The notes under the pieces were generated by a model. That model had not been told where the DNA came from and searched no databases. It worked only from the letters and a program-made list of their open reading frames with translations. Position numbers and translations under genes: made by a program. Shown here one piece after another: positions 3,574 through 10,991 of a stretch of 11,011 bases of DNA; the first letter of the stretch is position 1, and every line of letters begins with the position of its first letter. Origin of the DNA: Candidatus Rokuibacteriota bacterium (GTDB lineage: Bacteria; Methylomirabilota; Methylomirabilia; Rokubacteriales; JACPHL01); assembly GCA_016188625.1 (NCBI GenBank), contig JACPHL010000279.1, positions 1-11,011 on the forward strand. Reading direction: 5' to 3'.

Positions 3574-3607
3574 TCGATGCGGGTGGAGCCGGAAGGGCTT
3601 CTCTCCC

Positions 3608-3637
3608 TTGACAAAATCGGCGTCTCGGGCGCATACT
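3608..3637 (+). promoter_or_regulatory. Sigma70-like promoter for the pgsA operon
   Basis: A perfect -35 hexamer TTGACA (3608-3613) is followed after 18 bases by CATACT (3632-3637), a four-of-six match to TATAAT with the key second A and last T. It lies in the 99-bp gap between argG and pgsA, 35 bases before the pgsA start. The short AT-rich patch around 3632-3650 stands out against the high-GC surroundings. It probably starts a new transcript for pgsA-plsY-gpsA-galT, separating that operon from arg. Confidence 0.7.
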
Positions 3638-3672
3638 AAACACAGTTTTAGCCTGCAGCGCTGAGGGGATGT

Positions 3673-4251
3673 GTGAACCTGCCGACCCAGCTCACCCTGA
3701 TCCGGATCTCCCTGGTCCCCCTCGTCGTGGTCTTCCTCATCTCCTCCGCCTGGGTGCACTCCCTCATCGCCGCGGCGATCTTCGTCGCCGCCTCGCTCAC
3801 CGACTGGCTGGACGGCCTCATCGCGCGCCGGCGCCATCAGGAGACCACCCTCGGCAAGCTCCTCGACCCGGTGGCCGACAAGCTCCTGGTCGCGGCCGCG
3901 CTCATCTCCCTGGTCCAGATCGGCACCGTCCCGGCGTGGATGGTGCTCCTGATCGTCGGGCGGGAGTTCGCGGTCACCGGGCTCCGGGGGGTCGCCGCCT
4001 CGCTGGGGATGCTCGTCCCCTCGAGCGACCTGGCCAAGTACAAGACGGTCCTCCAGTACGTCGCCGTCACCCTCCTGATCCTCGAGCGGAGCCTCCCCGA
4101 CACCGTGATGCCGGACTACGTCTACCTCTCGCGCGGCGTCCTCTGGGCGGCCCTCATCCTCACGGTGGCCTCGGGGATCGATTACTTCATCCGCTTCTTC
4201 CGCAAGAGCGACCTCGAGGCCATGGTGAAGGGAGAGGACCGCTGGCCGTGA
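3673..4251 (+). CDS. pgsA: CDP-diacylglycerol-glycerol-3-phosphate 3-phosphatidyltransferase
   Basis: A 192-residue integral membrane enzyme that transfers the phosphatidyl group from CDP-diacylglycerol to glycerol 3-phosphate, giving phosphatidylglycerol phosphate, the committed step to PG and cardiolipin. The CDP-alcohol phosphatidyltransferase signature is complete: DWLDGLIAR, eight residues, G, three residues, D, three residues, D (LDPVADKLL), including all conserved aspartates. Several hydrophobic segments follow (for example ISLVPLVVVFLISSAWV). The start is the GTG at 3673, preceded by GAGGGG at 3663-3668. The ATG at 3669 is out of frame. The stop TGA (4249-4251) overlaps the plsY GTG. 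PgsA and not PssA is chosen because of the length, the LPTQLTLIRI N-terminus and the G3P-related neighbours. Confidence 0.92.
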   Translation: MNLPTQLTLIRISLVPLVVVFLISSAWVHSLIAAAIFVAASLTDWLDGLIARRRHQETTLGKLLDPVADKLLVAAALISLVQIGTVPAWMVLLIVGREFAVTGLRGVAASLGMLVPSSDLAKYKTVLQYVAVTLLILERSLPDTVMPDYVYLSRGVLWAALILTVASGIDYFIRFFRKSDLEAMVKGEDRWP

Positions 4252-8072: not shown

Positions 8073-8160
8073 GCCGGGGTGGCGGAATCGGGAGACGCGG
8101 CAGACTTAAAATCTGCTGGGGCTCCGCCCCGTGGGGGTTCGACTCCCCCCCTCGGCACCA
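8073..8160 (+). tRNA. tRNA-Leu (anticodon TAA)
   Basis: The acceptor stem GCCGGGG pairs with CCTCGGC (8150-8156) with one G-T pair, then discriminator A and an encoded CCA (8158-8160). The anticodon arm GCAGA-CTTAAAA-TCTGC gives TAA (8107-8109). A long variable arm (GGGGC-TCC-GCCCC) and a T-arm GGGGGTTCGACTCCCCC mark a class II tRNA-Leu. The minus-strand integrase gene ends inside this tRNA, so it is the probable integration site. Confidence 0.97.
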
Positions 8161-9023
8161 AGGATTCCGCGAGGTTGGCCGACACCCCCCCGTGACTCCA
8201 CCCCCGCCGAGGGGCCGACTGTAACCGAAACTGTAGCCGTTTGCCGCCGAGTCGCCGCCTCGGCCAGCTTCTCGGCCGCCACCTGGAGATCCCCCTCGCT
8301 CACGATGTTGTACCGCTCGAACACCGCGCGGGTCTTATGCCCGGAGAGCTGCATCGCTACCCGCTCCGGCACACCGGCCCGGACCATGTTCCTGCTGGCC
8401 GTCCGCCGGAAGTCGTGGGGGATGCGGCCGGGGCAGCCCGCGAGCTTGCAGGCGCTCTCCCAGGACCCCCGGAAATCCTTGATGGGGCGTCCCCGCCGAT
8501 GGAACACCCACGGGATGATCCGCCCGGTCTGCCGCTGGAGGACCTCGGTCGTAGCCCGTTGGGCCTCGAGGAGCGCCCCGAGTTCGGGGGTGAAGGGGAA
8601 GGTCCGGGCCTCGTCGTTCTTCGTGCTGCCCGGCTCAAGGCGGACCACCCCCGCCTCGAAGTTCACCTGAGCCCAGGTCAGGGGGAGCACTTCGGAGGGC
8701 ACTCGCCAGCCCGTGAGATAGGCGAACGTGACGACGGGGCGGAGGGCCTTTGGGAGATGCCGCCGGACGGCCTCAAACTGCTCCGGCTCGAAGAACCCCT
8801 TGCGGGGCGCGGCCTCCTTGAGCCGCGGGATATGCGGGCGGGAGAGGAGACGCCCCGCCTCTATGGCCAGGCGGTACGCCCGGCGGAGCAGGGCCAGGTC
8901 CCGGTTGAGGGTGGCGTTGCTCAGGGCCTCGGGCCCGTCTTGGCGCTCGGTGATGTAGGTCCGGAGGTCGGCCGTGGTCAGCTCGCTGTGGCGTGACATC
9001 GCCTCCCACCGTCCTCCTCCCAC
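8106..9023 (-). CDS. Tyrosine recombinase/integrase, N-terminally shortened
   Basis: A 305-residue phage-type integrase. All catalytic residues are present: Arg107 (LTGWR), Lys135 (STKND), His203 and Arg206 (HDFRR), His229 (GHKT), and nucleophile Tyr238 (FERYNIV). Residues about 14-60 are the end of a core-binding domain (ELTTADLRTYITERQ), but the first 60-100 residues usual for the family are missing. An in-frame stop (9036-9038) lies just upstream. The GTG at 9023 gives the longest reading; an ATG at 8999, next to GGGAGG, is an alternative start. The last 16 residues (AEGGSRTPTGRSPSRF) and the TAA stop are read from the antisense strand of tRNA-Leu. The catalytic domain looks intact, but DNA binding may be impaired. 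Confidence 0.88.
   Translation of the reverse strand: MGGGRWEAMSRHSELTTADLRTYITERQDGPEALSNATLNRDLALLRRAYRLAIEAGRLLSRPHIPRLKEAAPRKGFFEPEQFEAVRRHLPKALRPVVTFAYLTGWRVPSEVLPLTWAQVNFEAGVVRLEPGSTKNDEARTFPFTPELGALLEAQRATTEVLQRQTGRIIPWVFHRRGRPIKDFRGSWESACKLAGCPGRIPHDFRRTASRNMVRAGVPERVAMQLSGHKTRAVFERYNIVSEGDLQVAAEKLAEAATRRQTATVSVTVGPSAGVESRGGVGQPRGILGAEGGSRTPTGRSPSRF
8107..8160. other. Probable attachment site (3' half of tRNA-Leu)
   Basis: The integrase abuts and overlaps the 3' half of tRNA-Leu, the usual crossover region for tRNA-targeting tyrosine recombinases. The tRNA is intact, as expected if the incoming element restored its 3' end. The exact core cannot be set, because no second copy of the tRNA 3' end (for example CTCGGCACCA) is seen to the right in the window. 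Confidence 0.5.
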
Positions 9024-9085
9024 CCTGAGGGGTATTCAGGCCCAGGCCCGGCATGGGAGGATCTCCGGGCTTTTCGGACGCGACC

Positions 9086-9496
9086 CTAGGGCCTGACAGC
9101 TTTTATCGCCTTTCGATGCTCCTCGGTCCAGGGCACGGCCACTTCAACAATTGGCTGGAGATTGTCGCGGATCAACTGGATCTTCAGGGTGGATTGCGTC
9201 TTGAGATATTCGAGGAGACGCGGGTCTCGTGCCTGGACCGTTTTGATATTGAGGCTTTGTCTCCCCGAGAGTTCGAACACAAGATGGAGAGTTCGTACGC
9301 CATTCATCCATTCGACACTCGTAACGGAGACTTCGGGCCGATCCGGCCCACTTCCAGTGGTAGGTGCCTTGACGACGACCCTACACTGGTCCGCCTCCTC
9401 TATTGCAAGGCCGTCGCATGATGGATCTTTCAGCTTCGCTCCTTCCCGATGAGTAAGTGGCCGCACGCGTCTTTCCTCCGCTTCAGCCGGGGTCAA
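9086..9496 (-). CDS. Unknown protein, last gene of the toxin-antitoxin-like operon
   Basis: A 136-residue protein that I do not recognise. Its TTG start (9496-9494) overlaps the toxin stop by four bases (TTGA), which is why this start is chosen; a later in-frame GTG also exists. After a charged N-terminus, residues about 40-80 alternate like beta strands (PEVSVTSVEW, VRTLHLVFEL), then a helical, Lys/Arg-rich C-terminus follows (RDPRLLEYLKTQSTLKIQLI). There is no signal peptide, membrane segment or cysteine cluster. Codon use is mixed, unlike the host genes. The overlapping plus-strand reading (9053-9421) is less likely, because this frame continues a coupled series of minus-strand genes. It could be an accessory of the TA pair or an independent cargo gene. 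Confidence 0.55.
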   Translation of the reverse strand: MTPAEAEERRVRPLTHREGAKLKDPSCDGLAIEEADQCRVVVKAPTTGSGPDRPEVSVTSVEWMNGVRTLHLVFELSGRQSLNIKTVQARDPRLLEYLKTQSTLKIQLIRDNLQPIVEVAVPWTEEHRKAIKAVRP

Positions 9497-9762
9497 TATG
9501 CGCTGCCCCGAGGCGCTATTCGAGCAATTCTGACCTCGCGCCGCTCGGTGTTAAAGGAATAAACGATTCGGTACGTCCCGCAGAAAACTTTTCGCCAGTT
9601 ACAGTGAAGCGATCCAGCGAGATGTGCCCAAGATGGCGGAGGGCCCATCGGGCTTAAGCAGATTTCGGCCAGTGCCCTGCCTAGGTCCTGCGTTTTGTGG
9701 GGATAGCGCTTCCGAAACTTCTGGACGAGGGAAGGATTGGCAATTTTGTAAGACGAGTACAG
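9493..9762 (-). CDS. RelE/ParE-superfamily toxin-like protein, non-canonical start
   Basis: A short frame of 89 residues, not preceded by ATG, GTG or TTG. Its second half matches the RelE/ParE toxin fold: a helical region (LVQKFRKRYPHKTQDLGRAL), a spacer with Pro, AHLAGSLHCNWRKVF, and the hallmark strands GTYRIVYSF and REVRIARIAPRGSAY. Arg/Lys residues occupy positions expected in ribosome- or gyrase-directed toxins, but the target cannot be told. The frame opens one codon after the TAG stop of the upstream antitoxin-like gene and in the same frame. The chosen start is CTG (9762-9760), with GGGGA about eight bases upstream; an alternative is readthrough of the TAG. The stop overlaps the next gene's TTG. 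Confidence 0.68.
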   Translation of the reverse strand: MYSSYKIANPSLVQKFRKRYPHKTQDLGRALAEICLSPMGPPPSWAHLAGSLHCNWRKVFCGTYRIVYSFNTERREVRIARIAPRGSAY

Positions 9763-9765
9763 GGC

Positions 9766-10146
9766 CTAAGTCCCCATATAGCGCTTTAGCTCATCGAGTC
9801 CCATCGGCGTTTCGGGCTCTCCAGTGTCTCGGATTGCCTCCGGGTTCTGGCCGTCTGCGATTTCTTCGGCTGTGGCTTCCCACGAGAGGATTTTTTCGAC
9901 TAGCTGGAAGAGATCGCCAGTTCGGCAGGCCCGTACGGTAGCCCTGAGAAGTTCCACCCCCATGATTGCGCGGTCGTTCTCAGCGAGTGTCTCAATGATC
10001 CAGGTTACCTTTTGATCGCTGGGTAATTCGATCTCTTCCGTGATGGATCGTATGTCAGCCGTGTCGGTGCAGGTTCGCGTCTCGGGTTTGGGAGAAACCT
10101 CAGGTGACCATACCTGGAAAGATGGGGCGCTGGCAGTCGCGATCAT
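9766..10146 (-). CDS. Antitoxin-like protein (tentative)
   Basis: A 126-residue acidic protein coupled to the DUF6941-like gene (its ATG overlaps that gene's stop by four bases). The N-terminal 35 or so residues are Ser/Pro/Thr-rich. Residues about 40-95 look helical. The C-terminal part (ILSWEATAEEIADG, then ETPMGLDELKRYMG) resembles the end of type II antitoxins of the Phd/RelB kind. That resemblance, and the position directly in front of a RelE-like toxin, are the only grounds for the call. No clear N-terminal DNA-binding motif is seen. The gene ends with TAG (9768-9766), in the same frame as the toxin. A different function cannot be excluded. Confidence 0.5.
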   Translation of the reverse strand: MIATASAPSFQVWSPEVSPKPETRTCTDTADIRSITEEIELPSDQKVTWIIETLAENDRAIMGVELLRATVRACRTGDLFQLVEKILSWEATAEEIADGQNPEAIRDTGEPETPMGLDELKRYMGT

Positions 10147-10553
10147 GAAGTTCCACTCCCTTCTTCACTCAACTGGCGAACTTCAAAGACGTGAATTCCT
10201 GCCGGTTCCTCCTTGTCGTCAAGCATTACTAGAAACTCGTGAACTCCCACAGCTTTTAGGGGTAATGGCGCCACTCTCAGGGTTAACGTTCCTATTCCGG
10301 CCCTCGGAGCTGTGACTGTACCCGAGACAATTGCTATCACATTTTGCGAATCTCGATGCCGAAGCTGCGCACGAAACTTGTATGTGCCCGCCTCATCAGC
10401 GTCCCAAATCTGGAAGAAAGATAGCCCCGGAAGAGTGACTGGGATCTCTGGCACAAGAATGTTCGGGGTGTAGACCCCGAGAAGCATGAGCTTGCCGTTG
10501 GCTTCTTTGCGTATGTCATCGCAAATAAGAGTAGCTCTTAATGTCAACGCCAT
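10143..10553 (-). CDS. DUF6941-like protein, first gene of the low-GC operon
   Basis: A 136-residue protein beginning MALTLRATLICDDIRKEANG and continuing KLMLLGVYTPNILVPEIP. The pattern of a short strand, ICDD.R.E..GK..L.GVY and later beta strands (FQIWDADEAGTYKFRAQL, VHEFLVMLDDKEEPAG) matches what I recall of the DUF6941 family, whose function is not known. The reading frame is open upstream to 10895, but that extension is the antisense of a metallo-hydrolase and is very rich in Gly and Asp, so the ATG at 10553 is taken. A purine run (GAGGGGG) lies about 11 bases before it. The stop overlaps the ATG of the antitoxin-like gene. Its place as first gene suggests a sensor or regulator for the operon, which is only a guess. 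Confidence 0.7.
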   Translation of the reverse strand: MALTLRATLICDDIRKEANGKLMLLGVYTPNILVPEIPVTLPGLSFFQIWDADEAGTYKFRAQLRHRDSQNVIAIVSGTVTAPRAGIGTLTLRVAPLPLKAVGVHEFLVMLDDKEEPAGIHVFEVRQLSEEGSGTS

Positions 10554-10582: not shown

Positions 10583-10612
10583 AGTTTAACACGCTTTGAT
10601 TGGCTACTCCAA
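10583..10612 (-). promoter_or_regulatory. Possible promoter of the low-GC operon
   Basis: On the minus strand TTGGAG (10612-10607) and TAAACT (10588-10583) are 18 bases apart, 30 bases before the ATG at 10553. The matches are weak (three and four of six). It lies at the point where G+C changes, and an inverted repeat GCTCCA/TGGAGC (10618-10634) stands just upstream, a possible operator. Confidence 0.3.
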
Positions 10613-10991
10613 CAGCCGCTCCAGCTCGTGGAGCCGGGCCGAGGTCGATCTGGGCGGGCTCCGGGTGGCGCACCTCAGCGACATGGGACATCTCCCGACG
10701 GAGGCGCAGTATCAGGCGCTGGAACGGGTCGATCTCCTCCTCGTCCCGGTCGGCGGGCACTTCTCCATCGATGGCCGCCAGGCGCGGGAGATCGTCGAGC
10801 GGCTCAAGCCTCGGGTCGCCATCCCCATCCACTACAAGACCGCCGCCACCGCCACCTGGCCCATCGAGGACGAGCGCGCGTTCGTCGAGGGCCATCCCAG
10901 GGTCAGCCGCCTTTCCACCTCCCGGGTCGTCCTGGGCCGGGGGGCGCTTCCGTCGGCCACGGAGATCTGGGTCCTCGAGCCGCCGAGATAG
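10596..10991 (+). pseudogene. Metallo-beta-lactamase-fold hydrolase, 5'-truncated
   Basis: This frame encodes the C-terminal part of an MBL-fold, UlaG-like metal-dependent hydrolase. GLRVAHLSDMGH (residues 21-32), VDLLLVPVGGHFSIDG, KPRVAIPIHYKT and the ending VVLGRGALPSATEIWVLEP match this group. Only about 115 residues are homologous; the N-terminal half with the HxHxDH metal site is absent, so the fragment cannot be an active hydrolase. The TTG at 10596 is merely the first start-like codon, and a TAA stands in frame at 10587-10589. Homology appears to begin at about 10641. The break coincides with the right edge of the low-GC block. Base composition is like the host genes at the left of the window. 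Confidence 0.72.

Follow-up and report, generated by a model that had tools for sequence, protein, structure and literature searches.

Background

Toxins of the RelE/ParE superfamily act by cleaving ribosome-bound mRNA or by poisoning gyrase. In TAC systems, a chaperone encoded in the toxin-antitoxin (TA) operon protects the antitoxin via an extension of the latter; such chaperones serve HigBA, HicAB and MqsRA pairs, and the antitoxin extensions that they recognize show no sequence similarity among themselves (PMC5105189). In HigBAC, the contact between the chaperone and the antitoxin is disrupted by a phage protein (PMC11980606). Another three-gene arrangement is paaR-paaA-parE, in which the first gene encodes the helix-turn-helix repressor PaaR (PMC8630535).

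Here we describe a locus in which a gene for a protein of the DUF6941 family precedes an antitoxin-like gene and a gene for a divergent RelE/ParE-superfamily toxin. The earlier note on this DNA saw in it a TA pair accompanied by further partners, one of the outer genes being that for DUF6941, and the core of this view is supported: the order of the three genes recurs, with ATGA coupling, in another genome (locus L045), and DUF6941 occupies the same slot before two other types of TA-like pairs. The reading that we favor, to which we assign a probability of roughly 0.42, is that of a tripartite type II TA module, where DUF6941 would control the antitoxin in a manner resembling that of the TAC chaperones, with a different fold.

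Genomic setting of the locus

The window, that is, the whole stretch of DNA analyzed (11,011 nucleotides), is the entire contig C95 of a draft Methylomirabilota genome (344 contigs, 84% completeness) and for the most part consists of a high-GC housekeeping region. Between positions 9050 and 10560, approximately, the GC content drops to 53-58%, compared to about 70-75% around this block, which adjoins a gene for a tyrosine integrase located at a tRNA-Leu gene (Table 1), in agreement with the earlier description of a low-GC block next to an integrase. The integrase gene has the same direction as the module, and its 3' end lies inside the tRNA-Leu(TAA) gene, which is the likely integration site; a search for the attachment repeats of the integrase yielded none that was convincing. 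The GC3 value of the integrase gene is 0.85, compared to 0.49-0.62 for the module. This difference in base composition is one of the observations that speak for the possibility that DUF6941 is a common solitary gene behind which TA pairs have been inserted with no functional tie, as part of the clutter of mobile elements; we return to this explanation, which appears unlikely, along with the recurrence data.

On the right flank of the block, a gene for a metallo-beta-lactamase-fold protein is truncated: its match to Lactamase_B_3 starts only at position 99 of the profile, and an 88% match continues on another contig of the assembly, C332, where a related copy lies. PADLOC produced no match for any of five proteins of the window, and a known defence system was rejected on these grounds.

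Table 1. Features of the low-GC block and its flanks in the window
Feature	Coordinates	Strand	Evidence or remark
tRNA-Leu(TAA)	8073..8160	+	ARAGORN
Tyrosine integrase	8106..9023	-	Phage_integrase E 1.4e-19; phrog_1 E 7.9e-43
136-aa ORF, TTG start, overlaps toxin stop	9086..9496	-	Outside the recurring module
RelE/ParE-superfamily toxin, divergent, 89 aa	9493..9762	-	Weak ParE_toxin match; homology to L004 toxin
Antitoxin-like orphan, 126 aa	9766..10146	-	ATGA overlap with DUF6941
DUF6941 protein (136 aa), at the head of the module	10143..10553	-	PF22091 E 1.1e-15
Metallo-beta-lactamase-fold gene without 5' part	10596..10991	+	Right flank of the block

Coupled reading frames and the start of the toxin gene

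The four minus-strand frames of the block (Table 1) were verified, and the positions that had been reported for two overlaps and one gap between them are correct. The DUF6941 and antitoxin-like frames overlap by the four bases ATGA (10143-10146) and the toxin and 136-aa frames by the four bases TTGA (9493-9496), with three bases (9763-9765) separating the antitoxin-like gene from the toxin gene on the same strand. The two latter genes are thus adjacent and coupled, as in type II TA systems, provided that the upstream one encodes, as we infer, an antitoxin. In shuffled sequence, at least three ORFs of at least 85 aa appeared in 19% of the cases, so that the lengths of the frames are unremarkable, and the case for the module depends on homology and recurrence.

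The 5' end of the toxin gene, at position 9762, is a CTG codon, and the frame reaches residue 39 without an ATG, GTG or TTG; the use of its single standard start, the ATG at 9648, would drop the N-terminal half of the protein, leaving 51 aa. The toxin and the antitoxin-like protein are encoded in one frame, parted only by TAG (9766-9768) and GCC. Judging from the sequence, toxin initiation at CTG 9762 is plausible: this codon is located 9 nt downstream of GGGG, a G-rich ribosome-binding-like site, and coincides with the position at which homologous RelE toxins begin. Alternatively, the start codon may have been lost, or the TAG may be read through. Given the CTG start, the window copy may be weakly expressed or decaying, and the missing standard start was counted against the tripartite reading. 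If the window copy were a decaying remnant, with a toxin gene deprived of its start codon and with debris in place of a fourth gene and an intact flank, this would account for the CTG as the only start as well as for the divergence of the toxin, the orphan status of the antitoxin-like protein, the truncation of the flanking gene and the origin of the contig from a fragmented draft genome. Such decay nevertheless seems quite improbable given that all frames are intact over their full length, that the CTG is preceded by the ribosome-binding-like site, and that the toxin has kept its C-terminal motif (GTYRIVY, R, terminal Y).

The toxin, the antitoxin-like protein and the fourth ORF

The match of the toxin to ParE_toxin (E 0.0097, 16.9 bits) is under the curated cut-off of 23. 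Over residues 43-90, that is, in the C-terminal half, the protein is 46% identical to its nearest homologue, the toxin of locus L004, which is a clear ParE_toxin member (E 6e-15, above the cut-off) encoded in an ordinary two-gene pair. Its sole sequence matches in the PDB are the archaeal RelE 1wmi (E 0.008) and PfiT (E 0.018). A structural model from the single sequence is poor (pLDDT 50); the order of its elements, HHEEE, is that of RelE, and its top PDB matches are RelE/HigB toxins, none of them significant (E of at least 0.05, Z about 3).

The antitoxin-like protein has an acidic C-terminus, with GLDELKRYMG as the last residues, and its N-terminal part of about 45 aa is probably an extension. 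It has no match in Pfam, NCBIfam, PADLOC or PHROGs and no homologue in the 95 genomes of the phylum, plasmids and viral contigs searched; its position ahead of a RelE toxin suggests that it is the antitoxin.

The same databases and sequence sets contain neither a match nor a homologue for the 136-aa protein, and the codon-position and amino-acid composition of its ORF is no better than that of the opposite-strand ORF 9053-9421 (+), so that either of the two may be the gene. Because this protein has no homologue in these sets and no equivalent in L045, a four-gene module was rejected, and the four-gene operon of the earlier note shrinks to a three-gene core: the four frames are real and the core recurs, and the fourth ORF drops out. 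The gene order recurs to the same extent: the succession of DUF6941, antitoxin-like and RelE/ParE genes is found outside the genus and GTDB family of the window, with no 136-aa gene. For the note, outer genes that are found only without the toxin would have spoken against the module; DUF6941 does occur with a toxin elsewhere, and so passes this check, which the 136-aa ORF, lacking a homologue in all sets searched, does not.

DUF6941: family, predicted fold and spread

The first protein of the module scores 58.6 bits against PF22091, for which the curated cut-off is 27, and is accordingly a clear member of the DUF6941 family, which is represented in 46 of the 95 genomes of the phylum and is not mentioned in any paper in the literature that we searched. 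A search for solved relatives with the single protein sequence returned none, and the profile produced weak matches to Ig domains (best E 0.05). An AlphaFold2 model built from the window sequence and those of seven homologues from viruses (pLDDT 85, pTM 0.75) is all-beta, with no helix-turn-helix. With E values of about 1e-4 to 1e-3, the best Foldseek matches of this model in the PDB are the carbohydrate-binding domain of Wzt and three ligand- and peptide-binding sandwiches, UNC119, PDE6-delta and RhoGDI, and VIA-align gives Z scores of 9-10 for many Ig-like domains. Because many such domains match equally well, an Ig-like sandwich is the only safe assignment, and DUF6941 is predicted to adopt this fold. 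The Ig-like fold is common and implies nothing specific to chaperone activity, which was counted against the tripartite reading.

Recurrence of the module in Methylomirabilota

We surveyed, along with their surroundings, 52 places in the phylum, besides the window, where DUF6941 is encoded. A two-gene unit directly follows DUF6941, often with an ATGA overlap, in nine of these; the other 43 (about 80%) have no such unit, so DUF6941 cannot be an obligate TA component, and this, too, was counted against the tripartite reading.

The closest counterpart of the window is L045, from another Rokubacteriales genome (G046) that belongs to another genus and another GTDB family. There, the two genes behind DUF6941 encode an antitoxin-like protein of 69 aa and a RelE toxin, which matches ParE_toxin with E 5.6e-15 and scores above the cut-off of NCBIfam RelE_StbE. 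The order and the ATGA coupling are those of the window, and the genes have standard start codons. Neither this 69-aa protein nor the antitoxin of the window matched any DNA-binding family.

In five loci from five genomes (L048, L049, L050, L057 and L069), DUF6941 is followed by an X protein (X150) of about 155 aa and a HEPN protein, which scored above the cut-off in the one locus of the five that was tested. Of six close homologues of this HEPN protein in the 95 genomes, five have the X protein and DUF6941 in front, and the sixth is degenerate. In L060, a HicBA-like pair is found behind DUF6941, and a viral contig (L115) has the order integrase, DUF6941, HicB-like, HicA-like. The pair found in L060 and L115 yielded no match in Pfam, so that 'HicA-like' and 'HicBA-like' are names given here by resemblance; HicBA is confirmed only in L173 (see below). 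The order and ATGA coupling of L045, together with the presence of RelE, HEPN and HicBA-like pairs behind DUF6941, were counted for a tripartite module. L045, L049 and L115 are better copies for experiments than that of the window.

Several other arrangements were observed. In L046 and L079, DUF6941 precedes a pair with no assigned function, the first protein containing WDSYGA and the second YRRI; in L079, DUF6941 continues into the first of these proteins in a single frame. In nine more places, a short basic peptide follows DUF6941. Such peptides, of 40-66 aa and often overlapping DUF6941, are seen in L042 (where the peptide is fused to DUF6941), L047, L054, L055, L064, L076, L085 and L087, and several contain a motif like VRVxxxxIxVRWxxFMLPKPxPATPK; by eye, the start of the L045 antitoxin resembles this stretch. 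In L043 and L044, DUF6941 overlaps, via ATGA, a protein of about 345 aa that resembles a methyltransferase.

DUF6941 in plasmids, phages and other phyla

A gene of about 165 aa, an XRE/HTH gene and DUF6941 follow one another on alphaproteobacterial plasmids (of Rhizobium, including Rhizobium tropici, of Bosea and of Niveispirillum) and in Synechococcus phage MinM1 (loci L090, L091, L111-L114 and L109). DUF6941 was detected in these triplets by the profile, except in Niveispirillum (profile E 5.9), where it was recognized solely from its motif. In R. tropici, the HTH gene (L091, about 3600-4004) carries no annotation. The plasmid triplet is kept even where the identity between its first genes falls to 43%. 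A HigB-like nature of the gene of about 165 aa was considered and rejected, as no Pfam, PHROG or PDB match supports it.

The position of the XRE gene directly before DUF6941 in the plasmids and the phage was counted for a tripartite module. It also bears on the possibility that the first gene of the window module regulates the operon, like that of paaR-paaA-parE or omega-epsilon-zeta: with no DNA-binding domain in the antitoxin, control of transcription or translation would fall to DUF6941. The gene order is indeed that of paaR2-paaA2-parE2, in which the antitoxin likewise lacks a DNA-binding domain (PMC8630535), and the failure of the L045 and window antitoxins to match any DNA-binding family fits this role as well. 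However, the plasmid and phage modules already contain an XRE regulator beside DUF6941, and the predicted all-beta structure has no helix-turn-helix, which makes a regulatory first gene quite improbable.

Other copies of DUF6941 stand apart from TA pairs. Pseudomonas phages encode it without such a pair, and a search around the copies in Desulfobacterota found no TA pairs, most of these genes appearing to be solitary, which was counted against the tripartite reading.

A second family of first genes

Before some of the same pairs, the place of DUF6941 is taken by P85, an unrelated family of 83-91 aa with no Pfam match and with the motif WNEYxLxDGTxLKxK..V. Three further homologues of the HicA-like protein that L060 and L115 share occur in the phylum (L117, L118 and L119), and in all three loci P85 replaces DUF6941 before the HicBA-like pair. 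Two loci with a more distant HEPN protein (L126 and L127) encode a P85 of 83-87 aa, then X and HEPN; the same order of P85, X and HEPN is found in L161, from the phylum of L004, which is not that of the window. In L173, P85 precedes a canonical HicB-HicA pair (HicA_toxin E 2.9e-9), and the domain of this HicB (UPF0150, E 2e-13, residues 45-103) starts at residue 45, leaving an N-terminal extension. In several genomes, P85 is also solitary. Thus, two unrelated first genes, DUF6941 and P85, precede the same pair types. The replacement of DUF6941 by P85 and the extension of the L173 HicB were counted for a tripartite module.

The antitoxins are long in most loci (126-159 aa), which fits the TAC model, but their N-termini did not reveal a signature tied to either first gene: comparison of those of the DUF6941 and P85 groups showed no shared motif (mean z -0.09 within and 0.25 between groups). 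This lack of sequence similarity specific to either first gene was counted against the tripartite reading.

Significance of the associations and the DUF6941 tree

Against a background of 286 ParE matches in 355 Mb, the expectation is that 0.02 same-strand ParE genes start in the 1 kb that follows any of the 52 DUF6941 genes, and one was seen (L045, besides the window; P about 0.02). This excess over expectation and the precedent of the TAC systems were counted for the tripartite module. By count, the HEPN linkage is far above chance, yet the five cases form one clade and hence represent a single event conserved across several genera rather than five. In the DUF6941 tree, the HEPN, HicBA-like and XRE cases each form one group, in separate places, and the DUF6941 proteins of the window and L045 are in different parts and are not sisters, so that the two RelE cases require two changes. 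A clade of 19 members lacks any linked pair, which was counted against the tripartite reading; the bootstrap is not settled.

These data also bear on the possible insertion of TA pairs behind a solitary gene to which they are functionally unrelated. The majority of DUF6941 genes have no TA neighbor and phages carry DUF6941 without a TA pair, both as expected under such clutter. Conversely, at least three pair types recur with DUF6941 in different clades, the genes are coupled via ATGA, the plasmid triplet has persisted to 43% identity of the first gene, and P85 substitutes for DUF6941 ahead of the same pairs, so we consider such clutter unlikely.

Proposed function of DUF6941 and its implications

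In the tripartite module that we favor, DUF6941, the antitoxin and the RelE/ParE toxin would be translationally coupled products of the low-GC block beside the integrase. The toxin would most likely cleave ribosome-bound mRNA or poison gyrase, as suggested by its superfamily, and the C-terminus of the antitoxin would wrap it. DUF6941, made just before the antitoxin, could bind the N-terminal extension of the latter and keep the antitoxin folded or protected; if DUF6941 were titrated or lost, for example when a phage infects the cell or the element is lost, the antitoxin would fail and the toxin would be freed. The parallel would be with the SecB-like chaperone of TAC systems, from which DUF6941 differs in its predicted fold and, in most cases, in the order of the genes.

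A broader and somewhat more tentative proposal is that DUF6941 and P85 are unrelated, interchangeable third components of TA modules that may be combined with RelE, HicA, HEPN and perhaps XRE-regulator pairs. Such a modular class, controlled by small beta-rich proteins rather than SecB, would extend across Methylomirabilota, Desulfobacterota, plasmids of Alphaproteobacteria and phages.

If the tripartite reading is correct, it provides the first functional context for DUF6941, a Pfam family that roughly every second Methylomirabilota genome of our search encodes and that also occurs in plasmids and phages, and chaperone-like control of TA modules is not limited to SecB. The loci L045, L049, L060/L115 and L090 would then be test cases for the coupling of one accessory protein to unrelated toxins, the feature that is used for sensing phage infection in TAC systems.

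Comparison with known systems

The TAC systems (HigBA1-SecB of M. tuberculosis; HigBAC and CmdTAC of E. coli) resemble the window module in that a third small protein is encoded in a type II TA operon and in that one third protein is combined with several pair types, DUF6941 being found beside RelE, HicBA-like and HEPN proteins and XRE regulators. They differ in that the third protein of the window matches, among Pfam and NCBIfam families, DUF6941 only and not SecB, with a predicted Ig-like sandwich, and in that DUF6941 is mostly the first gene rather than the last and the extension appears to be N-terminal. With paaR-paaA-parE, the module shares the extra first gene, the antitoxin without a recognizable DNA-binding domain and the ParE/RelE toxin, whereas PaaR is a helix-turn-helix protein and DUF6941 is predicted to be all-beta. 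As in RelBE and ParDE, a RelE/ParE-superfamily toxin is encoded behind an antitoxin-like gene; the window differs from these in the extra gene in front, the antitoxin that belongs to no known family and the toxin that scores below the Pfam cut-off. Within DUF6941 (PF22091) itself, the window protein is a clear member by sequence and, unlike most members, which are solitary, stands at the head of a coupled TA-like pair.
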